IMG/VR virus record: IMGVR_UViG_3300006875_000144
Location: 1-25,702 of that record
DNA: 25,702 bases
Reading direction: 5' to 3' (one strand)
DNA from: a virus
Below are positions 1,657-25,702 of the stretch, piece after piece. The translations under genes were made by a program, and so were the position numbers. The notes under the pieces are model-generated. The model was not told the DNA's origin and did no database searches. It saw only the letters and a program-made list of their open reading frames with translations. Position 1 is the first letter of the stretch; each line of letters begins with the position of its first letter.

Positions 1657-1664
1657 GATATATA
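1657..1664 (+). promoter_or_regulatory. ATATATA box upstream of tail sheath gene
   Basis: TGATATATAGA lies between terL and the sheath gene, ending 46 bases before its ATG. It matches the GATATATA box repeated upstream of nine other genes here and is read as a phage promoter -10-like element. No GAACTT lies at the spacing seen at the 6208, 13019 and 13908 sites. The leader is unusually long for this set. Promoter activity is inferred. Confidence 0.5.
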
Positions 1665-5542: not shown

Positions 5543-5550
5543 GATATATA
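5543..5550 (+). promoter_or_regulatory. ATATATA box upstream of tail tube gene
   Basis: GGATATATAG begins 5 bases after the sheath stop and ends 25 bases before the tube ATG. The leader is AT-rich with no Shine-Dalgarno. It belongs to the shared box family, without the GAACTT upstream element. It would allow the tube to be transcribed independently of the sheath. Confidence 0.55.
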
Positions 5551-6133: not shown

Positions 6134-6154
6134 TAGTATTCAAACTAAACATCA

Positions 6155-6176
6155 GGGAGCTTCGGCTCCCTTTTTT
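6155..6176 (+). terminator. Rho-independent terminator after tail tube gene
   Basis: GGGAGC-TTCG-GCTCCC is followed by TTTTTT: a perfect 6-bp GC stem, a stable UUCG tetraloop and a U tract, 21 bases after the tube stop. It is the clearest terminator in the window. Confidence 0.95.
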
Positions 6177-6200: not shown

Positions 6201-6233
6201 AAAATGAGAACTTTTTACTGACAAGGATATATA
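6201..6233 (+). promoter_or_regulatory. Bipartite phage promoter (GAACTT-N14-TATATA) before gp26-like gene
   Basis: GAACTT (6208-6213), 14 bases, then TATATA (6228-6233) followed by AAAG. The 16-mer AAAATGAGAACTTTTT at 6201-6216 recurs exactly at 13901-13916 with TATATAAAG at the same offset. The GAACTT and TATATA spacing is also the same at 13019-13044. It lies just downstream of the terminator at 6155 and 22 bases before the ATG at 6256. Activity is inferred from recurrence and position. Confidence 0.7.
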
Positions 6234-6255
6234 AAGAAACAAAAAAACATGTATT

Positions 6256-7278
6256 ATGTCAGATGAATTAGACTTCACGGATTTAAACGATGAGGCTTCA
6301 GAAAATGAAAGCCTTCGTGATCAAATCGAGAGAGAAGCCAGACTTTTTGCTGAAGCTGAAGAAGCAACAGCGACTCCAGTAGCAGAAAAAGTTGCGCAGC
6401 CTCAAGCAGCAAAGTTAACCACTTTAGGAAAGGCGGAAAAATTTCAAGCCTATGATAGCGAGCCAATCGCAGCAGATTTAGGGTGGAAGCCTGTTCCTCT
6501 TGAAAATTTACCTTCACAGGGACTCTTCTACGAAGAGGGAACACAGGTAGCTATTCGTGCGGCTACAGTAGCAGAGATTCGTCATTGGTCAACTATCGAT
6601 GAAAATGATTTGTTAGGCGTAGACGATATGCTAAACTTTATCATTGAAAAGTGTTGCCGCATCAAAATACCTGGAAAGCCAGGAAGTTTTAAAGACCTTA
6701 AAGAAATTGACCGTTTCTACCTAATCTTTGCTATCCGTGATTACACGTTCAAAAACGGAGAAAACAAAATGATGGTAAACGTTGTAGACGATAACGGTAT
6801 TACTCATCAGGTGGAGGTTACTAAAGAAAGTCTTGATTACTTTAACACTGAGGATAGGTTAATGAACTACTATGACCAAGTAGAAAGATGCTTTATCCTA
6901 AATATGAAAAGTGGAGAAAGCTTTAGATTGCATATGCCAACTCTGGGTGTAATGACTTTTATTAAGAATTTCATTAAGTCTAAACAACAAGCAGGACAAA
7001 ACTTTGATAAGGCATTTATTAAATACGCGCCTTTTATGTTTTCTGACTGGAAAACTGTAAACCAAAATACATACGATAAAGCGGTGCAAGACTCATATTC
7101 TTGGTCCGTGCAAAGAATTTCAGTGATGGATAAAATAGTAGAAATGCTATCGGCTTCAGTAAACCCGCAAGTTCGATACATTCTACCCGGCGGTCAGGAG
7201 GGCGCCGCCCCGCTGAACTTTCAAGGTGGAATCAAGTCCATTTTCCTTATTTCAGATATCTTTGACGAGTTGGTTTGA
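6256..7278 (+). CDS. Baseplate hub / tail assembly protein (T4 gp26-like, T4_baseplate family)
   Basis: The protein has 340 residues. An acidic, Ala/Glu-rich N-terminus (about 1-75, likely disordered) precedes a core opening with LPSQGLFYEEGTQVAIRAATVAEIRHWS (split across residues 86-113), the signature I associate with the T4 gp26-type 'T4 bacteriophage base plate protein' family. The rest is a helical core with FYLIFAIRDYTF and a C-terminal tail with ILPGGQEG. Such proteins act in tail/baseplate hub assembly and may be chaperones rather than virion components. The position between tube and tape measure fits. The ATG at 6256 follows an A-rich leader; a 5-codon ATG ORF (6249-6266) in another frame overlaps it. 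The family call is moderate and the exact role uncertain. Confidence 0.7.
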   Translation: MSDELDFTDLNDEASENESLRDQIEREARLFAEAEEATATPVAEKVAQPQAAKLTTLGKAEKFQAYDSEPIAADLGWKPVPLENLPSQGLFYEEGTQVAIRAATVAEIRHWSTIDENDLLGVDDMLNFIIEKCCRIKIPGKPGSFKDLKEIDRFYLIFAIRDYTFKNGENKMMVNVVDDNGITHQVEVTKESLDYFNTEDRLMNYYDQVERCFILNMKSGESFRLHMPTLGVMTFIKNFIKSKQQAGQNFDKAFIKYAPFMFSDWKTVNQNTYDKAVQDSYSWSVQRISVMDKIVEMLSASVNPQVRYILPGGQEGAAPLNFQGGIKSIFLISDIFDELV

Positions 7279-7288
7279 GGTGGAGTTT

Positions 7289-7543
7289 ATGCTCCTAAAA
7301 CTTCTACGACTACAGCCTTCTGAGCTAGACCGTATGGAGTTTTACCGAGCAGAGTTCTTAATGGATAATCTAAAAGAACACCACGAAAAAGAGAGCCAGC
7401 ATCGCAAGAAGGAGGAAGAGAAACAAAAGGCTGAAACACCTTCAATGTCTACATCAGATATGATGAAAATGTCTAACAGTATGATGAGCAACGCTTCATC
7501 CAGTTTAGGCGGCTTTAGTATGCCAAGCATGCCGAAGTTCTAA
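7289..7543 (+). CDS. Small tail assembly partner protein (putative)
   Basis: The protein has 84 residues. The reading frame is open further upstream into the previous gene. The ATG at 7289 is preferred because GAGGTGGAG (7277-7285), one of few purine-rich ribosome-binding-like sites here, lies just before it. The N-terminal part has LQPSELDRMEFYRAEFLMDN, then a charged helix rich in Lys/Glu (about 25-50) and a Met/Ser-rich tail ending in MPSMPKF. It sits 10 bases after the gp26-like gene and ends in a terminator. The position and the 'L.P.E...M.F...' opening resemble downstream partners of tail assembly chaperone pairs, which in other phages are made by frameshifting. I see no canonical slippery heptamer, so independent translation is the simpler reading. 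The function is a guess. Confidence 0.65.
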   Translation: MLLKLLRLQPSELDRMEFYRAEFLMDNLKEHHEKESQHRKKEEEKQKAETPSMSTSDMMKMSNSMMSNASSSLGGFSMPSMPKF

Positions 7544-7551
7544 CATATTTC

Positions 7552-7585
7552 AAAGAGTGCTCAATAAGATACTGAGCACTCTTTT
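7552..7585 (+). terminator. Hairpin terminator after the 84-residue protein gene
   Basis: AAAGAGTGCTCA (7552-7563) pairs perfectly with TGAGCACTCTTT (7573-7584) around a 9-base loop and ends in TTTT. It sits 8 bases after the stop codon and runs straight into the TATATA box at 7586, a compact terminator-promoter junction. Confidence 0.88.
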
Positions 7586-7593
7586 GATATATA
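7586..7593 (+). promoter_or_regulatory. ATATATA box upstream of the tape measure region
   Basis: TTTTGATATATAC directly abuts the terminator stem and ends 26 bases before the ATG at 7620. A GATACT at 7568-7573 stands where GAACTT occurs at the bipartite sites (14-base gap). It is a weak match and lies within the hairpin loop and stem. Confidence 0.55.
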
Positions 7594-7619
7594 CTCTAAA
7601 ATTACAGTCCTCTTATTAA

Positions 7620-7877
7620 ATGTCAGCAGGTGCACAGGCAGTAGTAGCCAAACTCAATGAGCTTCTTGATGTAAACAAGAAGATGCTTCAGCTTATGGAG
7701 CAAAAGGAGAAAGGCGGAGGCAAGCAAGACGCTAAGAAGGGGCCTGCACCTACAGGAGGCGGAGACGCTCTAGGCGGCATCGATGAAAAAAAGATGACCG
7801 GCCTTGCAGGTGCTATCAAAGATTTGATAGATGCCGCAAAAAATGCTGGTGGCGTTAAAGCCAACGCAGCTAATTAA
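7620..7877 (+). CDS. Small Lys/Gly-rich protein in frame with the tape measure gene
   Basis: The protein has 85 residues. An amphipathic helix (AVVAKLNELLDVNKKMLQLMEQK, residues 7-29 split) is followed by a Gly/Lys/Pro linker (30-55) and a second helix GLAGAIKDLIDAAKNAGG, ending KANAAN. Its stop TAA (7875-7877) is followed by 12 sense codons and then the tape measure ATG at 7914 in the same frame (294 bases from start to start). It is therefore either a separate small tail protein or the N-terminal segment of a tape measure interrupted by one stop. It has its own TATATA box. I recognise no family. Confidence 0.7.
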   Translation: MSAGAQAVVAKLNELLDVNKKMLQLMEQKEKGGGKQDAKKGPAPTGGGDALGGIDEKKMTGLAGAIKDLIDAAKNAGGVKANAAN

Positions 7878-7913
7878 GTAGTTAAATTTTACGAAACTTT
7901 CGCAACAAACATC

Positions 7914-10900
7914 ATGAAGATTGTTGAGCGAATGGATGCTGACAAAATCAAAGATTTCAACGAACTCATGTCTACCTTAATACAAGGTTCAGGTAGGTTT
8001 GTACGAGCAATGGCCATGACAGCGATACTAGCACCTCTTGCTATTATTGGGGCTCTTGCGTTTGGTGCCACGGTTAACATTGTAATGGCGATAGTTTCTC
8101 GTTCACGATCAGCTTCTAAAGAACAAATGGAAGGCTTAAAGAATCTATTCGGTCTGGCTCGAGGCTTGGCGCTATTCACACTAGTGATGATAGGCATTGG
8201 ACTTGTTTTACCTATTGCAGCTAAAGGAGTTCTAGGCTTTGTTGGTATGATCATTGTCATATCAGGAGCTTTAAGGCTAGCAAGTATGATTGCTGGCGAT
8301 GGTGAAGGCTTCGTTAAAGGTCCATTAGGTTCTCTCTTAAAGTTGGGAAGAGGCTTAGCGATATTTACTCTTGTAATGATAGGAATTGGCTTAACTCTTC
8401 CGTATGTGGCTCTTGGCGTGCTAGGATTTGTAGGAGCTATCATTGTTATTTCAGGGGGTTTACGTATAGCAAGTATGATTGCCGGTGACGGTGAAGGCTT
8501 TGTCAAAGGCCCACTCGGTTCCCTAATGAAACTAACACGCGGAATAGCTCTCTTTGTAATCTCTATGATTGCCATATCCTTCTTGTTAAAACCATTTGCA
8601 ATTGGGGTGCTTGCTTTCATTGGTGCAATAACTCTGCTTGCAGGCGCAATGAGACTTGTAGAGCTTATTGCAGGCAAAGGTGGCCTTAAAGGTGCTGCTA
8701 ACATTATGAGCGATACTGGTGCCATTGGTTCGTTAATGAAAATGGCTAAAGGTATTTTCCTCTTCTCGTTAACAATGGTTCTTATTAGCTACTTTGTCCC
8801 ACAGTTTGCTATTGGAGTTCTTGCATTTATTGGAGCTTTAATACTACTTACCGGAGCCTTAAAACTCATGGATATCATCATTAGTGCAGGCGCAAAAGGT
8901 AAAGGCGCCGCAAAACGCATGAAAGAAATGATGGGTGAGGGTGGTCCTATCGGCTCATTAATGAAAATGTCATTTGGTATTCTTATCTTTTCTGCCGTTA
9001 TGGTAGCCGTAGGCTACTTTGCTGATAAATTCTTAATAGGTTCTCTTGTGGTTGCCGCTTCTTTAGCAGGCATTGGCTTAATTATGCTAACAATATACGG
9101 GAATCCTAAAGTTAAGACCGGTGCTATCAACCTTATGTGGGTTGCAGGTGCACTTGTTGCCTTCTCTATTGGATTTGGAGCAATGGCGTATGTGCTAACT
9201 AAGTTTAGCGTTGACTTAGGTAAAGTAGCAATCATGGCTGCTGTAATTGTAGGCATGGGACTGATTGGTACTGTTTTAGGTATACCTCCTATTGACGGAT
9301 GGGTCAAGGCTGGTGCCATCAATCTTATACTTCTTGGGGCATCTTTAATTGTGTTCAGTATAGGATTTGCGATATTTGCTAGTGCAGCTAAAGACATAAC
9401 ATGGGGACAGATAGGAATACTGTTTGCTGTTATTGGAGGAATGGCTATTGTCGGTACTATTTTAGGTATACCTGCGGTTGCTCCATTTGCACTTATTGGA
9501 GCAGGTGTTCTCATTGCTTTAGGCGCGGCATTGGTGATCTTTAGCATTGGCTTCGCAATATTTGCCGCAGCATCACTAATGTTTAAAGATAATGAGGAAG
9601 TTCTGCGCGCAGGGCTAGCAATTGCAACAATAGGCGGCGCGTTTGCTCTTCTTGGCCTAGCTTCACCTATGATATTATTAGGTTCCGCTGCAATGGTTGT
9701 TGCCGCGGTTGCTTTACTTCCTATTGCTATGTCATTAGCGATATGGAATGCATCAGGGGTCGCTGGTAACACTGACCAAATAAAAGATTCTTTGCAAACA
9801 CTTTTACCTGCTCTTGGGTGGGCTATGGCCGGTAGGTCGAGCGCGCCAGAATTTGGGTTTATGGGAATGGGGCTAGCGGCTGCAATGGCAGACCTCCTAG
9901 TCTATGTTGCGATGGTAGTTATGGGCTCTGCTGCAATGGTTATTGCTGGTGCTGCATTAATTCCAATATCAATTGGCTTGGCAATCTTTAAGGCAACTAA
10001 ATGGACTGCAGAAGACTCTGCAGGACTAAGATATATGCTTTTTGAAGTCGGTAATGCGTTTGCTGACCTTGCGCGAGATGGTAATTGGTTCTATGTGCAG
10101 CTTGGAATCATGGCTACTATGTTCATGGGCAACAACCTAGCCTCTCTCGCTACTGGTATTCAGGCGTTAGCAAATATGACATATACCGAGTATGAGTGGG
10201 ATGAAAGTACTAAAAAGCTAGAGCCTAAAAAGAAAGTTAAGCTTACTCGTGATGATGTACAGGTTGCGGCTGATAACGCAGCCTATATGATTACGGCAAT
10301 GGTATTCCCACTTTCTGAGTTTGGTATGCTATTTAGTGGAGGAATGTCTGGTGAAAGTGTTAGATACCCAGGTCTTACACCGTTTGGTACTATGATGGGT
10401 ATTATTATGTTAGGCACGCTTGGTCAAAATCTCGCAAAATTAGCGGATGGCGTACAAGCATGGGCTACCATGTCATATTGGGAATACGAGCTACAATATA
10501 ACCCAGAAACCAAAATGAAGGATTTGCGCCCTTCAAAAAAGAGAAAACTGAATAGTACTGAAATTAAAAGCGCAGCTAATAACATTGCACATGTAATTAT
10601 GGCAATGGTTGCACCATTAGCAGCTTTTGGTGCCTTAATGGCTTTAGGGGACGCTGCTGCTATGGCCAATCCTGTTGGTGGACTAATGGTAGGTCTTGGT
10701 TTAGGGAAGAACCCAATTGAAAAGGGTATTGATGCTATTGGAACTCTTGGAGGCAGCCTAGCAAGTTTAGCGCAGGGCGTCAGGGACTGGGCCACCATGG
10801 CATATTGGGAGTATGAAGCGCAACTCAATCCAAAGACTGGGATGAAGGAACTCCGACCGTCGGCTAAAAAGAAACTTACTCCAGCAGATTTTAAAGAATC

Positions 10901-12380: not shown

Positions 12381-12390
12381 AAGCTTTAAA

Positions 12391-12398
12391 GATATATA
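12391..12398 (+). promoter_or_regulatory. ATATATA box immediately before the 104-residue coiled-coil gene
   Basis: AAAGATATATACTAC follows the tape measure stop by 10 bases and ends only 4 bases before the ATG at 12403. If it is a -10 element the transcript would be leaderless or begin within the first codons. It is otherwise a good match to the shared box. Confidence 0.45.
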
Positions 12399-12402
12399 CT
12401 AC

Positions 12403-12717
12403 ATGGAAAAGTTTAGAAAGTTTAGTGATTGGGAAACTAATCGTTTTAGCGCTAATGAGGAAGAGCAAGCAGCTGCCTCATCTAAGGTAGAATCTAACGC
12501 CAAACTCTTGGCGCAGATCGCAGACCTTGAGGCTAAACGTAAACATCACGTAAAGTATAAGCAGGATTTTGAAGCACGCATTCTGGAGGTTGACATAAAA
12601 CTCTTAAAGATTGAAGTAGAGAAGAACAACCTAAACGATACTCGTGAACAGTTAGTAGCTGCTCATGAGATTTCTAAAACATCACGCAAAGAAGGAAAGT
12701 CATATGAGCAAGATTAA
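12403..12717 (+). CDS. Coiled-coil small protein, unknown function
   Basis: The protein has 104 residues and I do not recognise it. It opens MEKFRKFSDWETNRFS and continues as an uninterrupted charged helix (about 18-95) with heptad-like hydrophobics (LLAQIADLEAKRKHH, ILEVDIKLLKIEVEKNNL), which predicts a coiled coil. It lies 22 bases after the tape measure and overlaps the next gene by 14 bases, so the two are probably co-translated. The position after the tape measure suggests a tail or assembly role, by context only. No in-frame Met occurs near the start, so the ATG at 12403 is the only sensible choice despite the very close TATATA box. Confidence 0.8.
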   Translation: MEKFRKFSDWETNRFSANEEEQAAASSKVESNAKLLAQIADLEAKRKHHVKYKQDFEARILEVDIKLLKIEVEKNNLNDTREQLVAAHEISKTSRKEGKSYEQD

Positions 12718-12949
12718 GAAGAGAACACCCAAGTTTGACCGCTTTGAAAAAAGCGATGCAAGCACTAATAACTACACACCACCGACTCAGATAGTAAAGA
12801 TACCTGATGGAGACAAAGGTTATGGTTTGGTAAGCGCGGGTTTTAATGACCAAACGGTTTACTTTAAGCCAGGAATCAAAAGTGTAAACAAAGACTTAAC
12901 TAATCACGATTACGAAAGGAAAGAAGAAGATGATTCAGGTGATAAATAG
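12704..12949 (+). CDS. Small charged protein, unknown
   Basis: The protein has 81 residues and I do not recognise the family. The ATG at 12704 is chosen over the in-frame ATG at 12665 because it has AAGGAAAG 5 bases upstream and gives a plausible MSKIKKRTPKFDRFEKS opening; the longer form would overlap the previous gene by 53 bases. It has a basic N-terminus, a central VKIPDGDKGYGLVSAGF and TVYFKPG segment likely to be beta-strands, and an acidic tail (YERKEEDDSGDK). It is coupled to the upstream coiled-coil gene (14-base overlap, different frame) and followed by a hairpin terminator, so it closes this short transcription unit. Confidence 0.75.
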   Translation: MSKIKKRTPKFDRFEKSDASTNNYTPPTQIVKIPDGDKGYGLVSAGFNDQTVYFKPGIKSVNKDLTNHDYERKEEDDSGDK

Positions 12950-12973
12950 TGACATCTAAGAAACTTTAATACA

Positions 12974-13003
12974 GGGTATATGGTTAACTATATACCCATT
13001 TTT
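12974..13003 (+). terminator. Hairpin terminator after the 81-residue protein gene
   Basis: GGGTATAT (12974-12981) pairs perfectly with ATATACCC (12990-12997) around GGTTAACT, followed by ATTTTTT. It lies 24 bases after the stop of the 12704 gene and just ahead of the bipartite promoter at 13019. The stem includes a TATATA on both strands that should not be mistaken for a promoter box. Confidence 0.85.
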
Positions 13004-13018
13004 TATGCACTCTCGTTG

Positions 13019-13044
13019 GAACTTATTACATAGGTAGGTATATA
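13019..13044 (+). promoter_or_regulatory. Bipartite phage promoter (GAACTT-N14-TATATA) before hydrophobic protein and kinase
   Basis: GAACTT (13019-13024), 14 bases, then TATATA (13039-13044), the same geometry as at 6208 and 13908. The region after GAACTT (ATTAC) also resembles the TTTAC at those sites. It ends 16 bases before the ATG at 13061 and would drive the 13061-13902 pair. Confidence 0.68.
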
Positions 13045-13060
13045 ACACTAAAACATAGAT

Positions 13061-13336
13061 ATGAACGATGCAATGAAAACTGCTGAGCTTAAAGCTAAGC
13101 TCAAAAATATCTCTAACGAGGAAAAGACCAACCAGCTGTCAAACGAAATTGCTGACTCTGTAATAGCCTTTATGGCAGGTGCCGTGCGCTCACTAGCATT
13201 TGGGAGTGTTTTTTACGGAGCGCAATTAGCTATTATACAACGTATAGGTGCGTTACCACTCAACTGGATTGAAGCTGTTTGTGTTTACGCAACGTATGAA
13301 ATACTTTTAAGCACTATCAAAAAATTAAAGTCTTAA
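13061..13336 (+). CDS. Small hydrophobic (probable membrane) protein
   Basis: The protein has 91 residues and I recognise no family. A charged N-terminal helix (about 1-28, Lys/Glu-rich) is followed by two hydrophobic stretches: SVIAFMAGAVRSLAFGSVFYGAQLAI split over about 32-57, and LNWIEAVCVYATYEILLSTI over about 66-85, ending KKLKS. Two membrane-dipping or transmembrane helices are plausible. The arrangement would suit a holin-like protein, but there is no lysis context beside it and I do not claim that. Its stop overlaps the kinase start (TAATG), implying coupled translation. Confidence 0.75.
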   Translation: MNDAMKTAELKAKLKNISNEEKTNQLSNEIADSVIAFMAGAVRSLAFGSVFYGAQLAIIQRIGALPLNWIEAVCVYATYEILLSTIKKLKS

Positions 13337-13902
13337 TGAAGAAACGAGTAATACTTGTAGGAAAGTCTGCGGCAGGCAAAGACCACGCAAGAAAAATCTG
13401 CCAACAATGGCTTGGGATGAAGTACCAAGTATCCTATACAACTCGTCCGCCAAGAGATGGCGAGGAACACGGTGTAGATTATTACTTTGTTGAAAAGACT
13501 ACTTTCGAGGAAATGATTTCACAAAACTTATGGTACGAATATGTAATGTTTAACGGATGGTACTATGGGACTAGCAAAACACAAATGGAGGAAGCCAACT
13601 CAGTTTTCATTATGACCCCTGCCGGGCTATCCCATTTGTCAATTCCCGACCGAAAAGAATCTATTGTCATCTACTTTGATATTGATGAGGAAACGCGTAG
13701 AGCTCGCATGGAAAGACGTGGAGGAAACGCTGATAGTGTAGATCGCAGAATTGAAGCTGACCGCTTAGATTTTGAAACCTACACAGACTATGATGCTGTT
13801 ATTAACGTTCCATCATACTCAATAGTGGACATATACAACATAGTTTCTCAGCACATGCCATTGCCGCATAAAGATAAATTTTTTTCCGCAAAAGTTTCAT
13901 AA
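13336..13902 (+). CDS. Guanylate kinase-like nucleoside monophosphate kinase
   Basis: It would phosphorylate (d)GMP to (d)GDP for phage DNA synthesis in the cytoplasm. The protein has 188 residues (bacterial Gmk about 205). The P-loop is GKSAAGKD (9-16, K15). The guanylate-binding signature is SYTTRPPRDGEEHGVDYYFV (33-52), matching the family S-x-TTR-x-PR-x-GE-x-x-G-x-DY. GWYYGTSK (about 75-82) and a lid-like RARMERRGGNADSVDRRIE region follow. The residue after the P-loop Lys is Asp then His rather than the usual Ser/Thr, which is seen in some phage kinases but could alter activity. It is translationally coupled (TAATG) to the hydrophobic protein, and its stop region overlaps the next promoter. 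Strict substrate specificity cannot be told from sequence. Confidence 0.88.
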   Translation: MKKRVILVGKSAAGKDHARKICQQWLGMKYQVSYTTRPPRDGEEHGVDYYFVEKTTFEEMISQNLWYEYVMFNGWYYGTSKTQMEEANSVFIMTPAGLSHLSIPDRKESIVIYFDIDEETRRARMERRGGNADSVDRRIEADRLDFETYTDYDAVINVPSYSIVDIYNIVSQHMPLPHKDKFFSAKVS

Positions 13903-13933
13903 AATGAGAACTTTTTTACAATGATGTTATATA
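13901..13933 (+). promoter_or_regulatory. Bipartite phage promoter before the sigma factor operon
   Basis: The 16-mer AAAATGAGAACTTTTT (13901-13916) is identical to 6201-6216. GAACTT is at 13908-13913 and TATATA at 13928-13933 (14-base gap), followed by AAAG. It begins at the kinase stop codon and ends 21 bases before the ATG at 13955. The left part also forms an imperfect U-tailed hairpin (AAAAGTTTCAT 13890-13900 with ATGAgAACTTTT, one bulge), so it may double as the kinase terminator. Confidence 0.7.
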
Positions 13934-13954
13934 AAGCATAAATAAGCAATCAAT

Positions 13955-14248
13955 ATGAAAAACTACACAGTTACGCCAGCCTTCAAAACGGTTGTCACAG
14001 AAATCTTAAGCACTTTAAAATTTTCAACAGTGTTCCCTTACATGAACCTGGTAAATCGTGAAGGCTTTGCTTACAGCGAGCAAGAGCTTAACAGCATTAT
14101 CCAGTTTATGGGTGAACTACCATACTCGCAAGTTGCTGAGTTCTTCCAGGGTCTTCCTAATCATGTATCTGAGTTGGAGGCAAACGCGGAAGAAAGAACT
14201 ACTGTTGAAGAAGATACTGCAAATGTGAAAGAAGAGGTTAATATCTAA
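13955..14248 (+). CDS. Small protein upstream of sigma factor, unknown
   Basis: The protein has 97 residues and I do not recognise it. The ordered part (about 1-70) opens MKNYTVTPAFKTVVTEILSTL and includes YMNLVNREGFAYSEQELNSI and a helix ending FFQGLPNHVSELE. The last 25 residues are strongly acidic (EANAEERTTVEEDTANVKEEVNI, split) and probably disordered. The leader is AT-rich without Shine-Dalgarno. It is the first gene after the bipartite promoter at 13901 and is separated from the sigma factor gene only by a large inverted repeat that begins at its stop codon. The arrangement suggests shared regulation with the sigma gene. No function can be assigned. Confidence 0.8.
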   Translation: MKNYTVTPAFKTVVTEILSTLKFSTVFPYMNLVNREGFAYSEQELNSIIQFMGELPYSQVAEFFQGLPNHVSELEANAEERTTVEEDTANVKEEVNI

Positions 14249-14317
14249 GATAAAATTGTTAATAACTTTTAGGCTAAATAGTTTACAGATTAAACTATTT
14301 TGGTTATTTTTATCTTA
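14246..14317 (+). promoter_or_regulatory. Large nested inverted repeat in the leader of the sigma factor gene
   Basis: Three nested arms can be seen. TAAGATAAAA (14246-14255) is complementary to TTTTATCTTA (14308-14317). AATAAC (14261-14266) is complementary to GTTATT (14303-14308). AAATAGTTT (14276-14284) is complementary to AAACTATTT (14292-14300) around a 7-base loop. It spans 72 bases from the stop codon of the 97-residue gene to 33 bases before the sigma ATG. All stems are A/T-rich. It could be an attenuator, an RNA stability element or an operator. No strong U-tract follows the outer stem, so it is not a standard terminator. Confidence 0.65.
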
Positions 14318-14350
14318 AATAAAACAAAACCTTTTTATACACATTTATCT

Positions 14351-14956
14351 ATGCAGGAAAATCTTTCACTACAAGAAATGGCATTACGCTTCCACGAGAG
14401 CCGAAGCGAATCTGACTTCACACGTTTGTACCACCGTCTTAAACCGGGTATTAGCGTCTACCTTAAGGACATGATTCCAAGTTGGGACGACCGTGAAGAA
14501 GTTATTGCAACTACATTTTCAAAAGTCTGGAGTAAAATCCACCAGTACGACCCATACTGGAATTTTAGTACATGGGTCTATCGCATTGCACGTAATGAGG
14601 CATTGCTCTTTTTCCGCGCTAAACGTAAAACATACTCTTACGAGGCGATGGAAGAAAAAGGAATCAACATGGCAGCAAAAGCCGGCTATGTTGAAGCAGG
14701 GTTTGACGAAGATGAAAACCCAATGGAAATGCTACACGGCATGGTCTTAGACGAGATTTACGCTCTTCCTGATTGCTACAAATCTGTCTTAACTCTTCGT
14801 GAAGTCGAAAAGAAAAAGTATGAAGAAATTGCCGAGGAGCTTGGCATGAAAATCAACACAGTTCGCACGCGCATACATAAGGCACGTCGCATCATTCGAG
14901 GCGAAATTGCCAAGAAAGCTCCAGCGTTGCTTAAACAGTACCAAGAAATCATATGA
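14351..14956 (+). CDS. ECF-type RNA polymerase sigma factor
   Basis: The protein has 201 residues and should redirect host RNA polymerase to phage promoters. Sigma region 2 (about 23-93) has FTRLYHRLKPGISVYL, DDREEVIATTFSKVWSKI and the hallmark FSTWVYRIARNEALLFFRAKRK split across 72-93. After an acidic linker (about 94-135), region 4 (about 139-186) has LPDCYKSVLTLREVEKKKYEEIAEELG and the recognition helix INTVRTRIHKARRIIR. Regions 1 and 3 are absent, as in ECF factors. The ATG at 14351 is preferred over a TTG at 14300, which lies in the inverted repeat and would add unrelated hydrophobic residues. The gene has no TATATA box of its own and follows the promoter at 13901. T4 uses gp55, a divergent sigma, for late genes; an analogous role is inferred. 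The next gene overlaps it (ATGA). Confidence 0.93.
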   Translation: MQENLSLQEMALRFHESRSESDFTRLYHRLKPGISVYLKDMIPSWDDREEVIATTFSKVWSKIHQYDPYWNFSTWVYRIARNEALLFFRAKRKTYSYEAMEEKGINMAAKAGYVEAGFDEDENPMEMLHGMVLDEIYALPDCYKSVLTLREVEKKKYEEIAEELGMKINTVRTRIHKARRIIRGEIAKKAPALLKQYQEII

Positions 14957-15414
14957 AATGGTTAGCCCGTCCCTTTATTGCAATCAAAGAAATCTGGTAT
15001 GAACTGCGCAATTGGCGCTACGTCAAGCAGATTATTCGTGAACATCGCAACACCGCTGACTGGGAACAGTTTAACTTAAGAGCTGATTGGGTAGGGCGCA
15101 TTTATACAGTGATGAATCCACAGTTGCCTTCGGACAAAGGTGATACATCTGAAGTGCTAAAGCTTAAGTATGCCGAGCGCATTAAGCCGATGAACTTGTA
15201 CCTGGATAAATTAGGCCTGGGACAATACGTCACAGTGGCATACGAAGAAATTGAAGGGTCAGACTCTCTACTGGTAGTATACGTTCCTATCTTTGAAACG
15301 CTTACTACGTGGAAAGTTTTCTGGTTCATCGTATTCTGGCTGGTATTTTTTCTTACAAAACTTGACACTTATACGTACCAAGGGCTCTCTTGGTTGTGGA
15401 ACTTAATCTTTTGA
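14953..15414 (+). CDS. Single-pass membrane protein coupled to the sigma factor
   Basis: The protein has 153 residues. The ATG overlaps the sigma stop (ATGA), so the two should be made together. The N-terminal 115 residues are soluble-looking and basic at first (KWLARPFIAIKEIWYELRNW), then mixed (WVGRIYTVMNPQLPSDKGD, LGLGQYVTVAYEEIEGSDSLLVVYVPIFE). One strongly hydrophobic segment at about 118-135 (TWKVFWFIVFWLVFFLTKL) is followed by a short aromatic tail. In bacteria the gene coupled to an ECF sigma is often a membrane-anchored anti-sigma factor. This one lacks any anti-sigma motif I can name (no HxxxCxxC), so that role is only positional inference. It could equally be an unrelated phage membrane protein. 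Confidence 0.82.
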   Translation: MKWLARPFIAIKEIWYELRNWRYVKQIIREHRNTADWEQFNLRADWVGRIYTVMNPQLPSDKGDTSEVLKLKYAERIKPMNLYLDKLGLGQYVTVAYEEIEGSDSLLVVYVPIFETLTTWKVFWFIVFWLVFFLTKLDTYTYQGLSWLWNLIF

Positions 15415-15420
15415 TGTGAA

Positions 15421-15426
15421 TATATA
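15421..15426 (+). promoter_or_regulatory. TATATA box upstream of the 193-residue coiled-coil gene
   Basis: GAATATATAAAGAG lies 4 bases after the membrane protein stop and 19 bases before the ATG at 15446. GAACTT occurs at 15399-15404 but with a 16-base gap instead of 14. The leader AAACAAAAAAAC matches that of the gp26-like gene. Confidence 0.6.
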
Positions 15427-15445
15427 AAGAGTAAACAAAAAAACT

Positions 15446-16027
15446 ATGGAAAAACAAGAAAGCACAATTGAAATTGTCTCTAAAAAAGAGCAGATTGTAG
15501 AGTTGAACAAGAAGCGTCAACAAATGGTAGAATTCCTTGACCGTAAAATCGAGAACAAGGAAAAAGCGTTAGAAGGAAAACGCTATGTGGTAGAAGGAAA
15601 AGAAAGTATTGGCGAAAAACTTATCACCTTTTTGAAGGATGATGCTCAGTGGAAATTCACAGAGGCTTTAGGTATTGTAGAATCTCTAAAGCAGGTAGAG
15701 GAGGCAGTAAAATCTGTAAAGACTAAAAAGACGTCTGAGCTTTTACTACCATCTTTAGCTCTTGAGGCCGTGTATTACTTTCTAACTAAGGTTGAAGGTA
15801 CTGGAACTCTTAACGCTGAAGCTTTTATCGCACTGCTAAAACCAGTATCTGATGCATTAGGCCGTTCAAAACAAGAACGTCAGGAAATTGACCAACTTGT
15901 TCGTGACCGTGGAACTCTTGAATCTGCTATTGACTCTGGCGTGGACATTGAAAATGAAGACGATATCCTAAAAGAGATACAGGCTGAGATGGAATTTGAA
16001 ATGCAATCTGAGACTGCAAAAAACTAA
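15446..16027 (+). CDS. Coiled-coil protein, unknown function
   Basis: The protein has 193 residues and is not recognised. The N-terminal 60 residues are a highly charged helix (EQIVELNKKRQQMVEFLDRKIENKEKALEG, split) predicted to form a coiled coil. The middle section has FLKDDAQWKFTEALGIVESLKQVEEAV and a more hydrophobic ELLLPSLALEAVYYFLTKVEG (about 105-125). The C-terminal 45 residues are acidic (DIENEDDILKEIQAEMEFEM). It looks soluble and helical. It is the first gene of a cluster with the two membrane proteins that follow (6-base and 1-base gaps), so it may act with them at the membrane. The start is supported by the TATATA box and an A-rich leader shared with the gp26-like gene. Confidence 0.82.
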   Translation: MEKQESTIEIVSKKEQIVELNKKRQQMVEFLDRKIENKEKALEGKRYVVEGKESIGEKLITFLKDDAQWKFTEALGIVESLKQVEEAVKSVKTKKTSELLLPSLALEAVYYFLTKVEGTGTLNAEAFIALLKPVSDALGRSKQERQEIDQLVRDRGTLESAIDSGVDIENEDDILKEIQAEMEFEMQSETAKN

Positions 16028-16033
16028 AAACCA

Positions 16034-16324
16034 ATGAATAAGTTTAACGACTTCATAAATAAGCACTTCACCAAGATAGCCTTGGTGATGTTGCTTCTTG
16101 TGTTCTTCAACACGTGCGGAAACCCTAACGTGGGAACTAACAAACGTATCGATGCATTAACTAAAGAGGTGGATTCTCTTAAGAATGATGTGGCCACTCG
16201 CAAAGATTTGCAAATAGAGGGTCTAAAGGCAGAGAAGCGTATGATACAGTCTACTGACCGTAAGATGCTAGACGTGCAAAGGCAAACTGCTATTGATGCG
16301 GAGCTGAAAAAATTAGAAAAGTAA
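16034..16324 (+). CDS. Membrane-anchored coiled-coil protein (lipoprotein or spanin-like)
   Basis: The protein has 96 residues. The N-terminus carries a basic stretch (NKHFTK), a hydrophobic segment IALVMLLLVFFNT (about 15-27) and a Cys at 28. The rest is a charged helix (RIDALTKEVDSLKNDVATRK to LKKLEK) predicted as a coiled coil. The topology (N-terminal anchor, periplasmic coiled coil) is that of an inner-membrane spanin. If the Cys is lipidated (FNTC, a poor lipobox) it would be a lipoprotein. No lysis genes are visible nearby, so either label is tentative. It lies 6 bases after the coiled-coil gene and 1 base before the next membrane protein gene. Confidence 0.78.
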   Translation: MNKFNDFINKHFTKIALVMLLLVFFNTCGNPNVGTNKRIDALTKEVDSLKNDVATRKDLQIEGLKAEKRMIQSTDRKMLDVQRQTAIDAELKKLEK

Positions 16325-16325
16325 A

Positions 16326-17129
16326 ATGAATCAAAAGAGGCTAAAATACTTCATCATTGGTACATTCGTCTCGCTTTATGCAATAGTTAGCGTTATTTCA
16401 ACTATACACGTGATAGACTTTTTTCGTCTATCCAACCCTGATTGGTTAGCAGTATCACTAGCCATTGCCTTTGAAATTGGAGCAGCCGCATCCCTGGCTT
16501 CTCTAATCGCCTTAAAGAAGATGAACAAAACTCTTGTATGGGCTCTCTTTATTACACTAACTGGAATGCAGATGATGGGTAATACATACTACGCGTACAC
16601 AAACCTGGAAGACTATCAAAGTTGGGTAGAACTTTTTGGTCTGGTAGACGCTGAACCTATTACACAAAAAAGAATACTTTCACTTGTAAGTGGAGCGGTT
16701 CTTCCGTTAGTTGCTTTAGGATTTATCAAATCCCTGGTTGATTACATTAAGCCAGAAGAGGATGCTGCGGCAACTATAGAGGAAACTCCTAAAGATTGGA
16801 ACGAGGATGCCAAGAGAGTATGGAAGCACGTACAAAAAATGCGCGACGAAGGAGTTTATCCTGAAGCAACAGCTGAAGAAATTGCAGACGAACCAACGGC
16901 ATTAGCAAATTCAAAGTACCGTGAAGAGTACGCCGAGGATGACTATGAAGACTACGCCGAAGGGGAACTATATACCGAGGATCAAAAAAGACAAGTCCTT
17001 ACTGATGTAGAGGAAGCTCGCACTGAACTTACCGAGGATGACATCGAAAAGTACAAAGAAAAATCCAGAATAGAACCCAAGAACGATGGAGGTTCAAGCA
17101 ATCCGCAAATAGTTCCAGGCGTTAACTAA
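16326..17129 (+). CDS. Four-helix membrane protein with long acidic tail
   Basis: The protein has 267 residues. Four hydrophobic segments are visible at about 8-30 (YFIIGTFVSLYAIVSVIST), 41-62 (LAVSLAIAFEIGAAASLASL), 68-88 (TLVWALFITLTGMQMMG) and 118-137 (ILSLVSGAVLPLVALGF). A soluble tail of about 125 residues follows, extremely rich in Glu/Asp/Tyr (EEYAEDDYEDYAEGELYTED). By the positive-inside rule both ends are probably cytoplasmic. It starts 1 base after the preceding stop, so it is in one operon with the two upstream coiled-coil genes. I recognise no family. A role at the host inner membrane (lysis control, superinfection exclusion, replication tethering) is possible but unproven. Confidence 0.85.
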   Translation: MNQKRLKYFIIGTFVSLYAIVSVISTIHVIDFFRLSNPDWLAVSLAIAFEIGAAASLASLIALKKMNKTLVWALFITLTGMQMMGNTYYAYTNLEDYQSWVELFGLVDAEPITQKRILSLVSGAVLPLVALGFIKSLVDYIKPEEDAAATIEETPKDWNEDAKRVWKHVQKMRDEGVYPEATAEEIADEPTALANSKYREEYAEDDYEDYAEGELYTEDQKRQVLTDVEEARTELTEDDIEKYKEKSRIEPKNDGGSSNPQIVPGVN

Positions 17130-17146
17130 AAGAACACTCACGTGAA

Positions 17147-18292
17147 ATGTCAATTAAACCACCTATTAAATGTCCACCTGATTACAGCATTCTTGCCTTT
17201 AGGCTAACTGAGTGCAAAAAGGCAGGTATTGTCAAAGGCATTACTACGCAACTTGCGGTAGACTTGCAGGAACTTTTTGTTCCAGTAGCTAACTACGAGG
17301 AGAGGTCAATGACCCTCAAAGCAGGCGAAACCAAACGCATTGACGTTTCATCTTTAGGAGTTTCTTGGCCCCTTAATGAGGAATACCAGTTTGTGGCAAA
17401 CGCAAACTTTTGTGGCTTAGGAACACAACATACTTACGCTTTGTATGACGCTTCAAATGTTCTTATTGAAGCTATCACTATTAATGTAAACCCTGCGTAC
17501 CCTACTTTCAAAAAAGCTTTAGAATTTGCCATTGCCAACTCTGCGCAAATCAAAGACTTAATGATTATTAGTGCAGCATCTTTTGATGGACCTACTGGTA
17601 CAATAACAGCCAAGGCTCGCACTAAAGGCGTAAAATACAGACACGAGTTCTCCTTTGACTTAAACGGATTTGGAGGCTACTGGCCTTTCCCTTACAAGCA
17701 TCCAGGCAACCTGGTAACTCCATATCAAAAATACGATAGGCCAAGAGTAAAACTCATGATGATCTATCCTGATTATTACAAGACTACAGTGTACAATAAC
17801 TGTGGTTGTATAGATTCTTCAGGGGATATGAAGTCCAACAAAAAGTGGATTGAATACGCGTACGACGACCAATACTACATGGTCAATAACCCACAAACGC
17901 CTATTACCGGTACCGCAGTTCTTAACGTCTCTCCATTTGGTAGCCAATTTACTTGGGATGCAAGCAGTGTTGACCATTTAGGCTACCATTTTAAAGAAGG
18001 TGATTTGTTATCCGCAAGTGGTAACCCCTTACTGCGTGGATTTATCACAAACATAGAAGGATATCTTATAGAACTTGATACTCCAGTAGGAGACCTACCA
18101 CTACCTACGCCATCTCAAAGTCTTTCTCACGTGTACTCCCCTGACAATGTTAAGTGGAGAAAGATGGGAGACTTTCACCTACATACAACTGCACAGGATG
18201 TTCTTGACCAAGACTATCTGTACATTGAAACTTTATGGCTACGCAATCCACATCAGTACGACCTGCCAATTAAAATTATGGTAGCTAGCTAA
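17147..18292 (+). CDS. Probable virion structural protein (tail/baseplate appendage)
   Basis: The protein has 381 residues and I recognise no family by name. It is beta-rich with many aromatic and Gly residues. Visible elements are an N-terminal PPIKCPPDYSILAFRLTECKKAG with two Cys, a central YPFTFK-like stretch (GFGGYWPFPYKHPG near 180), a Cys pair NNCGC (about 222-226), and a C-terminal HFKEGDLLSASGNPLLRGFI segment followed by strands. There is no signal peptide. It starts 17 bases after the membrane protein and its stop overlaps the next gene (TAATG). That next gene overlaps the collagen-like fibre gene (ATGA), so all three are co-translated. By context it may connect the fibre to the tail or baseplate. 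Confidence 0.8.
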   Translation: MSIKPPIKCPPDYSILAFRLTECKKAGIVKGITTQLAVDLQELFVPVANYEERSMTLKAGETKRIDVSSLGVSWPLNEEYQFVANANFCGLGTQHTYALYDASNVLIEAITINVNPAYPTFKKALEFAIANSAQIKDLMIISAASFDGPTGTITAKARTKGVKYRHEFSFDLNGFGGYWPFPYKHPGNLVTPYQKYDRPRVKLMMIYPDYYKTTVYNNCGCIDSSGDMKSNKKWIEYAYDDQYYMVNNPQTPITGTAVLNVSPFGSQFTWDASSVDHLGYHFKEGDLLSASGNPLLRGFITNIEGYLIELDTPVGDLPLPTPSQSLSHVYSPDNVKWRKMGDFHLHTTAQDVLDQDYLYIETLWLRNPHQYDLPIKIMVAS

Positions 18293-18783
18293 TGTATACT
18301 AAAACACAGATTGATGAAGGTGTTGCTCTTGCAGGCGGTGCTTACCGTGTGCAGTGGGGCGAGTATGGTGAGTCATACTATAAAAACCCTACGCCGCCAG
18401 ACATCTACTATGAGTACCTCTACGTGCTAGACTGGCAAACTCCAGAGAGTGTTATCAAAGTACAAGTTGACCAACTTGTAGATTTTATGCGCGATGGGGA
18501 GTATCTAGAAAAAGCTTTCAGCGTACTCGAAGAAGCTTTCGGCGCTGTGATAAGTACAATACCAATAGTCCCTGATGGAGAAACCACAGCAGAAGACTGG
18601 GCGCTGGTTTGCGTTGGCGGATTTACTGGAATAGCACCAACACTAAGCGAGGCTAAATGGCAGGCAGTTGGACTATGGGGACTTGAAAACCTGTATGAGG
18701 ATGCAACTCAAGGCTATCTGAAAATAGGCACCAATGAAGGAGCAGTCTTCATGATAGATGAAAATACATACTTGACGCTATGA
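18292..18783 (+). CDS. Unknown protein between structural protein and collagen-like fibre
   Basis: The protein has 163 residues and is not recognised. It is acidic and aromatic, opening [20 protein letters not shown] and then [21 protein letters not shown] helix with [20 protein letters not shown] precedes a C-terminal part with Trp-rich helices ([19 protein letters not shown]) and a beta end ([14 protein letters not shown]). Both ends overlap neighbours: TAATG with the structural gene upstream and ATGA with the fibre gene downstream, so expression is tightly linked to both. Likely roles are fibre connector or assembly protein. This is inference from position only. Confidence 0.8.
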
Positions 18784-19970
18784 CCGGACCTTTTGTAAAT
18801 AAGACTATATATGACCTGCCTGAGATATTTACACTAGGGACGGGCAATTTTATACTTGTAGGAGGAGTTACTGGCGAGAAACTTGCCAGAATTTCGCAAG
18901 AATACTTTGGGCTTACTGGAGCAACTGGAGCAACCGGTGCTGTAGGAGCAACTGGAGCAACTGGAGCAACTGGAGCAACTGGCCCACAAGGCGTACCTGG
19001 TAGTTCTAGCTCCTTTTTTAACTACAAGGCAAATACAACAGTAAATACAGGCGACCCTGGAAGAGGGTTTATCTCATGGAATAACCCTACACAGATTAGC
19101 TCAACTATCATTACCGTCAATATGATAGCATCTAATGGGATTGACATTGATTTGTTTCTTGCAAACATAGCAAGCGGCAATACAATCTATATACAAGATG
19201 CCGCGATTTCAAACTACTATCAAGAGTGGATAGTTAATGGTGCGCCTATACAATATGGAACAAGCCCTGATTTTTACTGGGAGATTCCTGTAACTTATGT
19301 AAGTGGAGGCTACTCTTTCTCGGCTGATGAAGACATTATTTTTGTTCCAATTACTACTGGTCCTCAGGGTCCTCAAGGCGATACGGGAGCTACTGGTCCT
19401 CAAGGCGATACGGGAGCTACTGGTCCTCAGGGTCCTCAAGGCGATACGGGAGCTACTGGTCCTCAAGGCGATACGGGAGCTACTGGTCCTCAGGGTCCTC
19501 AAGGCGATACTGGTACTACAGGGCAAACCGTTGACACAGTTCTTGGCTCCGGGACGCTAAGCATAACAACTACAGATACCACATACACTACTATAACAGG
19601 TCTAACACAAACTTTATCTTTCTCAGGAAGTTCGTATCAAGTAATACATGCTTCGTTAGGGCTATCGTTAGCAACATCAGCAACCACTAATGCTGTAATA
19701 GCTAACGTAGGAATTTTTGTTGATGGCATTATAGCAGAAGGTGGATATCGAACAGTTGTAGTCGGGCCAGGCATATCAGGTATCGCTTCCGGTAATCAAA
19801 CGCAAGTAAATTGCAATTTACAGCATTCTGTGCAGTTATCACCAGGCTCGCACACAATCGATGTTCGTGTACAATACGTGAATCGTATAGGAACATCATC
19901 ATTAAACGTCAGCTCTGGCAATGGTGGCACAAGAAGAGGCGTTCTTAGCGTCATAACACTAAATACATAG
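18780..19970 (+). CDS. Collagen-like tail fibre protein
   Basis: The protein has 396 residues and is presumably a trimeric host-binding fibre. The head domain (about 1-43) has [20 protein letters not shown] and [10 protein letters not shown]. Next come a first Gly-X-Y block (18909-19001, mostly GAT repeats), a globular insert (about 75-190) with strands such as [15 protein letters not shown] and [16 protein letters not shown], and a second Gly-X-Y block (19359-19530, [12 protein letters not shown]). The C-terminal ~150-residue beta domain has [28 protein letters not shown] and [19 protein letters not shown], which resembles jelly-roll heads that trimerise collagen-like proteins. The Gly-X-Thr repeats favour Thr, a possible glycosylation target. 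The second block contains a near-perfect 63-bp tandem repeat. Confidence 0.9.
19359..19510 (+). repeat. 63-bp perfect tandem repeat in collagen-like fibre gene
   Basis: Two identical 63-base units (19359-19421 and 19422-19484) and the first 26 bases of a third (19485-19510). Each unit encodes 21 residues: [12 protein letters not shown] plus GPQGDTGAT. The synonymous codons do not differ between copies, unlike the older repeats in the tape measure, so the expansion is recent or being homogenised. The length is a multiple of 9, so copy changes keep frame and collagen phase. Confidence 0.95.
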
Positions 19971-19977
19971 AAGCCTT

Positions 19978-20298
19978 ATGAATCAATGGTATTACCTGTC
20001 TCTAGAATTACAGAGAAATTCGCAAAGAAATTCCTACGAAATTTCGAATGAATCCGTCTTACAACTAAGCCCATCTCTTTTACAAAACAGGCTGCTGGAA
20101 GTGTATCAATCTTCTTATGATGATACATTACAAGATGGTACTTCATTTGATGTGTGGGATACGATAAAAATGTCTTTGCTATTAATTGATGGCTCAGAGT
20201 TCTCTTCCACCGAAATGTCACGCTCTAACTTTGATTTAGAATCAACAAGCACTTCTATCGAAGAAGTTTTGTACTCTATGTACCAAACTCTTGTATAG
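19978..20298 (+). CDS. Small acidic protein after the fibre gene, unknown
   Basis: The protein has 106 residues and is not recognised. It starts 7 bases after the fibre stop. It is Ser/Leu/Glu-rich, with MNQWYYLSLELQRNSQRNSY, LSPSLLQNRLLEVYQSSYDD and a C-terminal STSIEEVLYSMYQTLV helix; it has no Cys and no membrane segment. Its position directly behind a fibre gene would suit a fibre assembly chaperone, as T4 gp38 or gp57A follow or assist fibre genes, but nothing in the sequence shows this. ORFs on the opposite strand here (19976-20369) are treated as shadows, since all neighbours are on + and the TATATA box lies in the gap. Confidence 0.7.
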   Translation: MNQWYYLSLELQRNSQRNSYEISNESVLQLSPSLLQNRLLEVYQSSYDDTLQDGTSFDVWDTIKMSLLLIDGSEFSSTEMSRSNFDLESTSTSIEEVLYSMYQTLV

Positions 20299-20315
20299 CA
20301 ACAATGTACACTGTT

Positions 20316-20323
20316 GATATATA
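20316..20323 (+). promoter_or_regulatory. ATATATA box upstream of the 179-residue protein gene
   Basis: TTGATATATAGAAAA ends 17 bases before the ATG at 20341. It lies inside the first codons of a longer TTG-start reading frame (from 20314), which supports choosing the downstream ATG. No GAACTT is present at the 14-base spacing. Confidence 0.6.
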
Positions 20324-20340
20324 GAAAAAATCCAATAAAG

Positions 20341-20880
20341 ATGTCTTTTACAATAAACAGAGTATACAAATTACGAGCAGGCGTTAATTACAACCCAAAC
20401 ACTAACACAGTTTTACGTTTTCGTGGCACGGTAACATCCGGTGCAACTGATATAACCGTGATTAACGGTCCTGTATTTAACGCAATTACTAGCATTTCCG
20501 GTGCTGGAGGAACACCTACTGTGATAGGCACTGGCTTTAAGGACCCTGTAACAGGTTCTCCAAGAATCCCTGTAGGGTCAGCTGCACCTCTAGTAACTAC
20601 TGGAGCTATAACATCTACTGAAAGCGGTACTTTTGAGTTTATGCTTTTTGACGGAGACCGTCCTTCTTACTCGGACTCACCTATAATAGGGTTCCATGTT
20701 CAATCAACGCCAACTGCGCCCTTTGTGTTTACTACTTTGCAGGGCGATACCGTCAAACTGCCAATAACCTCCATGATAGCAGGCGCCGTGTACTATTACG
20801 CGATTGCAGAAGTTATCAGCATGGGAGCGCCTGGAGAATTACTAGGTTTAGCACCTGCAATCAAGCCCAACATCGTCTAA
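20341..20880 (+). CDS. Probable beta-rich virion protein
   Basis: The protein has 179 residues from the ATG at 20341; a TTG start at 20314 is rejected because it lies within the TATATA box. The composition is Thr/Gly/Pro/Val-rich and strand-like (LRFRGTVTSGATDITVINGP, GTFEFMLFDGDRPSYSDSPI, GFHVQSTPTAPFVFTTLQGD), ending in a small hydrophobic stretch (MIAGAVYYYAIAEVISMG) that reads as buried strands rather than a membrane helix. There is no signal peptide. It has its own TATATA box and lies among fibre genes, so a fibre, decoration or adhesin-tip role is likely. No named family is recognised. Confidence 0.8.
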   Translation: MSFTINRVYKLRAGVNYNPNTNTVLRFRGTVTSGATDITVINGPVFNAITSISGAGGTPTVIGTGFKDPVTGSPRIPVGSAAPLVTTGAITSTESGTFEFMLFDGDRPSYSDSPIIGFHVQSTPTAPFVFTTLQGDTVKLPITSMIAGAVYYYAIAEVISMGAPGELLGLAPAIKPNIV

Positions 20881-20905
20881 GAGTATTACTTGGGTTTCCC
20901 CTTTT

Positions 20906-20913
20906 GATATATA
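20906..20913 (+). promoter_or_regulatory. ATATATA box upstream of UVR-motif protein and giant fibre
   Basis: TTTTGATATATAAAGAAAA ends 20 bases before the ATG at 20934. It is a full match to the TATATAAAG form at 6228, 13928 and 15421. TTACTT occurs at 20886-20891 with a 16-base gap, resembling the GAACTT at 15399 in position. It would drive the 20934-25702 pair. Confidence 0.6.

Positions 20914-21341: not shown

Positions 21342-25702
<4,361 letters not shown>

Follow-up and report, generated by a model that had tools for sequence, protein, structure and literature searches.

An uncultured phage record in which an ATATATA-like box stands in front of ten genes raises the question of what this box does and which protein reads it. 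The record, IMG/VR virus record IMGVR_UViG_3300006875_000144, was analysed in its entirety and its 25,702 bases, in which all of the genes lie on the forward strand, are referred to here as the window. A preliminary description had listed the ten boxes and proposed that they were one class of phage promoter, with the sigma factor encoded at 14351 as the obvious candidate reader. Based on the comparison of the window with related contigs, we found that the ten boxes belong to two classes, a lone 8-bp element and a bipartite one that is accompanied by an upstream AACTT motif. It is probable that they would serve as the -10-like elements of two promoter classes with two separate readers: a homologue of the T4 late sigma factor gp55 for the lone boxes and the 14351 protein, which resembles the extracytoplasmic function (ECF) sigma factors, for the bipartite ones.

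Occurrence, enrichment and classes of the box

The described sequence was present at all ten places within one to three bases of the position that had been given, and all ten boxes lie in a short gap before a gene. Nine of them end 16-46 nucleotides (nt) before the ATG, while only 4 nt separate the tenth (12391) from it; the genes were called as the longest open reading frames (ORFs) with ATG starts, some of which are wrong. Exact GATATATA was found at 1657, 5543, 6226, 7586, 12391, 20316 and 20906, and the three remaining boxes are the variants GGTATATA (13037), GTTATATA (13926) and AATATATA (15419). The TATATA copies inside genes at 16969, 18806 and 19188 each follow a C, as had been claimed, and so does a further intergenic copy at 12989, which was absent from the earlier list and lies within a terminator hairpin (12974-12997).

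All seven exact copies are forward and intergenic, compared to a mean of 0.73 in dinucleotide shuffles of the whole window; when only the AT-rich intergenic pieces were shuffled, the mean was 0.09 with a maximum of 2, and there was no copy on the reverse strand. Among 24 contigs with a related terminase, 13 that were picked largely for length were examined, and GATATATA was found in all 13, almost exclusively on the coding strand. When the window and eight relatives were taken together as nine stitched contigs (about 627 kb), the intergenic shuffles gave a mean of 2.6 and a maximum of 8 against 76 forward and two reverse copies. Motif discovery across the intergenic DNA of these contigs returned ATATATA as the top enriched 7-mer, 41-fold, with 90 intergenic occurrences against 36 elsewhere. 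The forward copies of GATATATA comprised 64 intergenic and 20 nominally genic ones, with intergenic DNA making up about 6% of the sequence, and 19 of the 20 were inspected, all of which lie at a gene boundary, no more than 47 nt from the end of the upstream gene. An equal frequency inside genes, which the preliminary description had named as the observation to look for against it, was thus not found. Similar proportions were seen in the large relatives G015 (250 kb; 36 upstream and 9 genic) and G019 (238 kb; 23 and 6). The box was also shared by 101 of 753 orthologue pairs with less than 75% identity, where independence would give 31.9, and, in comparisons across the two main lineages, by 43 of 456 pairs, where it would give 16.2, although these expectations are only a guide because the pairs are related to each other.

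The division into two classes is evident from the sequence that precedes each box. The boxes and their upstream elements are as follows.

1657-1664, forward strand: lone GATATATA before the tail sheath gene at 1711; a lone box in 8 of 8 sheath orthologues, none with AACTT
5543-5550, forward strand: lone GATATATA before the tail tube gene at 5576; kept in G001, G005 and G007, absent in G008, G009 and G010
7586-7593, forward strand: lone GATATATA right after a terminator hairpin, before the small gene at 7620 and the tape-measure-like gene at 7914
12391-12398, forward strand: lone GATATATA before the ATG at 12403; kept in G005 and G010, absent in G008 and G009
20316-20323, forward strand: lone GATATATA before the gene at 20341; absent at the three orthologues found
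20906-20913, forward strand: lone GATATATA before the gene at 20934; absent at the three orthologues found
6207-6213, forward strand: -35-like AGAACTT, 13 nt before the ATATA of the box at 6226
6226-6233, forward strand: bipartite GATATATA before the gene at 6256; bipartite in 6 of 7 orthologues
13018-13024, forward strand: -35-like GGAACTT, 15 nt before the ATATA of the box at 13037
13037-13044, forward strand: bipartite GGTATATA before the gene at 13061
13907-13913, forward strand: -35-like AGAACTT, 15 nt before the ATATA of the box at 13926
13926-13933, forward strand: bipartite GTTATATA before the gene at 13955; bipartite in 4 of 5 orthologues
15398-15404, forward strand: -35-like GGAACTT, 15 nt before the ATATA of the box at 15418
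15418-15426, forward strand: bipartite GAATATATA before the gene at 15446; bipartite in 4 of 5 orthologues

In each of the four bipartite boxes, [AG]GAACTT ends 13 or 15 nt ahead of ATATA. AACTT with a spacing of 13-15 nt was seen at four of the ten boxes, compared to 0.05 on average and never more than two in 20,000 shuffles. The offsets of AACTT peak at the same 13-15 nt. The six lone boxes have no conservation upstream; in alignments of 59 and 38 lone-box sites, the first of which includes a few AACTT boxes, no position from -45 to -1 exceeded 0.4 bit and the box itself was sharp, with a length of 8-9 bp. An upstream [AG]A[AC]CTTT, at an almost constant distance, marks a second set of sites in the relatives, and many of the AACTT sites in G008-G010 have a different -10, GAATATAA. 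Around the ECF-like sigma genes (25 loci, of which 16 were aligned with the window protein as A2), the AACTT spacing was counted 17 times compared to none at a control spacing of 7-9 nt; for such spacing and element counts near-identical loci were dropped, with 19, 22 and 33 being kept. The class of a box was mostly kept gene by gene across the relatives, and the tape-measure-like genes of the relatives have a lone box in all six cases. The exceptions were a lone box in G007 at the orthologue of 6256 and in G005 at that of 15446, and an imperfect site in G005 at that of 13955. The earlier proposal therefore held as far as promoter-like, strand-specific elements are concerned, while a single class did not, since AACTT splits four boxes from six.

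Position of the boxes and their candidate readers

The placement of the boxes supports the reading that they behave as phage-specific, strand-specific promoter elements at the starts of transcription units. Three of them directly follow terminator-like hairpins and therefore sit where new transcripts must start.

6154-6171, forward strand: terminator-like hairpin that precedes the box at 6226
7552-7584, forward strand: terminator-like hairpin that precedes the box at 7586 (z -5.6)
12974-12997, forward strand: terminator-like hairpin that precedes the box at 13037 and contains the C-preceded TATATA at 12989

Across the genes, the box was rarer before tightly packed ones (13 of 346 with a gap under 15 nt) than before those with larger gaps (84 of 347). 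In the window, the structural genes linked to lone boxes are those for the sheath, the tube and the tape-measure-like protein, which is the gene context of late promoters. In G008, 14 of the 20 lone-box genes were scanned and five were informative (baseplate wedge, head closure, tail fibre, ribonucleotide reductase and homing endonuclease); the sheath gene of G008 is also among the lone-box genes. Ten of its 11 AACTT genes were scanned and included the topoisomerase II large subunit, a second topoisomerase II protein and a kinase/isomerase-like protein. This gene content fits a late use of the lone boxes and a middle use of the AACTT boxes, without proving it. As for the host machinery, TAnnTTTG, the -7 box of Bacteroidota housekeeping promoters, had no intergenic occurrence in the window, and a scan for the sigma-70 consensus was not informative, as it gave 29 sites where shuffles gave 33.5.

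The T4 late promoter is described as lacking a -35 element and consisting of the 8-bp TATAAATA at -13 to -6, which is read by gp55 together with gp33 and the clamp gp45 (PMC1524935, PMC2988020, PMC7892883), and variant late consensuses are reported for other T4-related phages (PMC1524935, PMC2984593). Exact TATAAATA does not occur in the window. The lone boxes resemble the late promoters of T4, KVP40, cyanophage S-PM2 (NATAAATA) and Aeh1 (a variant) in being an 8-bp -10-like box without a -35 element, in their position before structural genes and in the company of a gp55 homologue; the four AACTT boxes differ in having a conserved upstream element. The lone box may thus be regarded as a variant with the function of a T4 late promoter and not as a strict member of that class.

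A homologue of T4 gp55 (phrog_234) was found in 8 of 8 relatives with E-values of 2.7e-13 to 1.1e-15, and 236 contig stretches encode a relative of this protein. It has 114-147 amino acids and only a sigma-2-like part. In a single-sequence search, it was 31% identical over 96% of its length to a cyanophage protein annotated as 'sigma factor for late transcription', and in a profile search against the PDB its only credible match was T4 gp55 (7d7c, E-value 3.7e-6); a TetR family protein (3nrg, E-value 0.057) that also appeared was taken as a chance match. The structure model had a predicted local distance difference test (pLDDT) score of 83.6 and its best fold match was 7d7c_F with a template modelling (TM) score of 0.76. 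In T4 gp55, as described in PMC7892883, Y97 stacks on the A at -12 and T99 bonds to the A at -8. The equivalents of both residues were invariant in all 38 aligned members of the gp55 family (alignment A1, drawn from 80 gp55 loci after loci under 7 kb were left out), and both of these bases are kept in GATATATA. The bases that differ from the T4 box are those at -13 (T to G) and at -9 (A to T), for the latter of which T4 uses a shallow pocket. No clear signal of covariation between the -9 base and this pocket was found among the aligned proteins, since H95 is F in 10 of 10 non-T4 proteins, including that of a cyanophage whose group uses NATAAATA.

The gp55-like gene is located outside the window, about 11 kb before its first base, on contig L120. 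At its left end, the window shares 467 nt (99.4%) with contig L030, and 9 kb of L030 are 99.9% identical to L120; through this overlap the gene can be assigned, as far as the contigs allow, to the window's own population. The likely reader of the lone boxes is this homologue, which would act on the host RNA polymerase to start late (structural) transcripts; the lone boxes are better assigned to it than to the 14351 protein because a sigma-2-only protein suits a lone -10-like box.

The second candidate reader is encoded within the window.

14351-14956, forward strand: ECF-like sigma factor gene, with Pfam PF04542 (sigma-2) and PF08281 (sigma-4)

Its profile matched ECF sigma factors in the PDB, including sigma-E, with SigW as the best match (5wuq, E-value 4e-24), and it has the ECF architecture of sigma-2 and sigma-4 with a short linker and no sigma-3. 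ECF sigma factors normally need a -35 element, typically one with AAC. The four bipartite boxes have such an AAC-containing element (GGAACTT or AGAACTT) at a fixed distance, as in promoters of the sigma-E and SigW type, and we infer that the 14351 protein is their natural reader, since it has a sigma-4 domain, which would bind AACTT, and its ECF relatives normally require a -35 element. The difference from known ECF promoters lies in the -10, which is usually unlike the ATATA box. An ECF-like sigma gene was found in 11 of 12 further contigs that were brought in by their gp55 homologue, the exception being an 83-kb fragment. The presence or absence of the two sigma genes failed as a discriminator, as both are core genes of the group. 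The attribution of all ten boxes to the 14351 protein in the preliminary description would thus be retained for the four AACTT boxes and replaced for the other six. In addition to its orthologue of 14351, G008 has another ECF-like sigma gene (L041:12179-12796, minus strand).

Objections and alternative readings

Several observations weigh against the two-class, two-sigma model. The box at 12391 would put the start of transcription at the ATG itself; the gap between the box and the ATG at 12403 is 4 nt in the window, 6 nt in G005 and 7 nt in G010, and the message may be leaderless or another start codon may be used. Some of the lone-box genes in G008, i.e., those for ribonucleotide reductase and the homing endonuclease, are not structural. 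The boxes before 5576, 12403, 20341 and 20934 are missing from some lineages, with several lone boxes lacking at orthologues in G008-G010. The phrog_234 search also matched 7 of 14 cellular control genomes and that model alone is too unspecific to rely on. The gp55 homologue is without the C-terminal part of T4 gp55 that bears the clamp-binding motif. Moreover, gp33 (phrog_254) had no match in the six relatives searched, which are fragments, and gp33 diverges fast; the T4-type clamp gp45 (phrog_223) had no match in the window or in five of six relatives, and G008 gave only an E-value of 0.027, with a model that finds T4 yet misses the complete genomes of PTm1, MaF61 and Lak and probably does not reach this phage group. 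Another control spacing, of 18-20 nt, also gave seven upstream copies of AACTT in the sigma loci. Finally, in the clade of G015, AACTT-N13..15-ATATA was not enriched (1 upstream and 3 genic) although an ECF-like sigma is present, which suggests that the link between the 14351-type sigma and AACTT is weak or lineage-bound and that its specificity would differ in G015.

It is unlikely, in our estimate, that the gp55-like protein reads all ten boxes with AACTT as the site of a separate activator. Such a reading would account for the ATATA core that both classes share and for AACTT being lineage-bound while GATATATA is universal, but the rigid spacing of 13-15 nt is typical of one sigma factor that spans the -35 and -10 elements and not of a loose activator, and many AACTT sites of G008-G010 carry the different -10 GAATATAA. 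We consider it quite unlikely that all ten boxes are one class that is read by the 14351 sigma, with AACTT as an optional enhancer. The common core, the intermediate site at 6226 (exact GATATATA with AACTT), the lone-box orthologues of 15446 and 6256 and the conservation of the sigma gene in the further contigs all agree with a single class; against it stand the -35 requirement that is expected from the sigma-4 domain and the ECF relatives, with no such element at the lone boxes, the dedicated late sigma in the form of a gp55 homologue in every relative searched, and the fact that orthologues mostly keep the class of their box. An element that acts in the RNA, as a leader or translation signal, is very improbable: the box is always near an ATG and is followed by A-rich sequence, but its distance from the ATG varies from 2 to 56 nt, three boxes come directly after terminators, it is rarer before tightly packed genes and its form resembles the T4 late promoters and is paired with a gp55 homologue. 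Chance occurrence in intergenic DNA that is AT-rich is refuted, for practical purposes, by the intergenic-only shuffles and the near absence of reverse copies.

A third element, a possible cascade and related phages

Upstream of the sigma gene itself, GATATATA was found in none of 25 loci, and in the window neither class of box is present. A different sequence, GTTANTAAC, lies within 150 nt upstream of the sigma gene in 19 of the 25 loci, and in the window two parts of a third promoter-like element were located.

14258-14266, forward strand: GTTAATAAC, the distal part, upstream of the sigma gene
14305-14312, forward strand: TAnnTTTA, the proximal part, exactly 38 nt after GTTAATAAC

GTTAATAAC is a GTTA-N-TAAC dyad that is followed by TAnnTTTA at exactly 38 nt (34 cases) or 48 nt (5 cases), shortly before ATGs. 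Its copies were intergenic in 42 cases and genic in two, in a single orientation, and were found in the window, G008, G009, G010, G001, G005 and others; G015 and G019 showed no arrangement of this form. The element has the look of a promoter with precise phasing that depends on an activator. In G008, six of the eight GTTAATAAC genes were scanned and gave no named function, while the remaining pair comprises the sigma gene and a gene that resembles, by eye, an NAD-dependent DNA ligase; this would fit an early-to-middle use.

A three-step cascade unlike that of T4 is conceivable, and we put it forward only tentatively. In the first step, an activator-type promoter, with GTTAATAAC at one of two distances that are one helical turn apart before TAnnTTTA, would make the ECF sigma, which in the second step would replace the MotA/AsiA middle system of T4 at the AACTT promoters (topoisomerase and some tail genes). 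In the third step, a stripped-down, tail-less gp55 would read GATATATA at the structural genes, perhaps without the clamp tether of T4. The proposed system is ordinary in kind, as T4-related phages have gp55 late promoters, and it is a new variant in its sequence and setting, with a second sigma class alongside. With it, the promoters of a large group of uncultured T4-related phages would become readable as a code, by which early, middle and late genes could be separated from sequence alone, and a minimal natural gp55 of 114 amino acids would be a model for the purpose of the T4 clamp-binding tail and gp33.

Besides a T4-type large terminase and the sheath (1275 amino acids), the window encodes a tail tube, a guanylate kinase, the sigma factor and collagen-like fibres, and it belongs to a T4-related phage; its tape-measure-like protein was named by size and place and had no family matches. 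The neighbours of the terminase or sheath in the phage collection include huge uncultured phages, Prevotella Lak phages, Tenacibaculum phages and Flavobacterium phage MaF61, and therefore the host is probably a Bacteroidota bacterium, which would also set this phage apart from T4. Among the distant relatives, MaF61 and the huge phages LR756500 and LR756502 have gp55-like genes as well as upstream boxes that are related to the window box but differ from it at -13 or -9, i.e., GATAAATA in MaF61 (12 upstream and 4 genic) and AATATATA in a 50-kb part of LR756502 (21 and 4). The gp55 matches in MaF61 and PTm1 were weak with the phrog model (E-values of 0.002-0.006) and clear with the family model. 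No title or abstract in the open-licence literature that was searched describes the box in such phages.

In G019 (L226-L237) and Tenacibaculum phage PTm1 (L072, L074-L077), the top upstream 8-mers include TATATTTG, which corresponds to TAnnTTTG, and these sites are probably early promoters for the host sigma factor. The gp55-like protein of MaF61 (ORF75, L068:4739-5476) has an insert of roughly 125 residues just before the promoter-reading motif, and in Lak-B1 (MK250020, 402972-403304) in-frame TAG codons lie within the phrog_234 match, which fits TAG being read as an amino acid. The collagen-like Gly-X-Y fibre genes of the window are two in number, at 18780-19970 and 21342-25702, and the second continues past the end of the contig.

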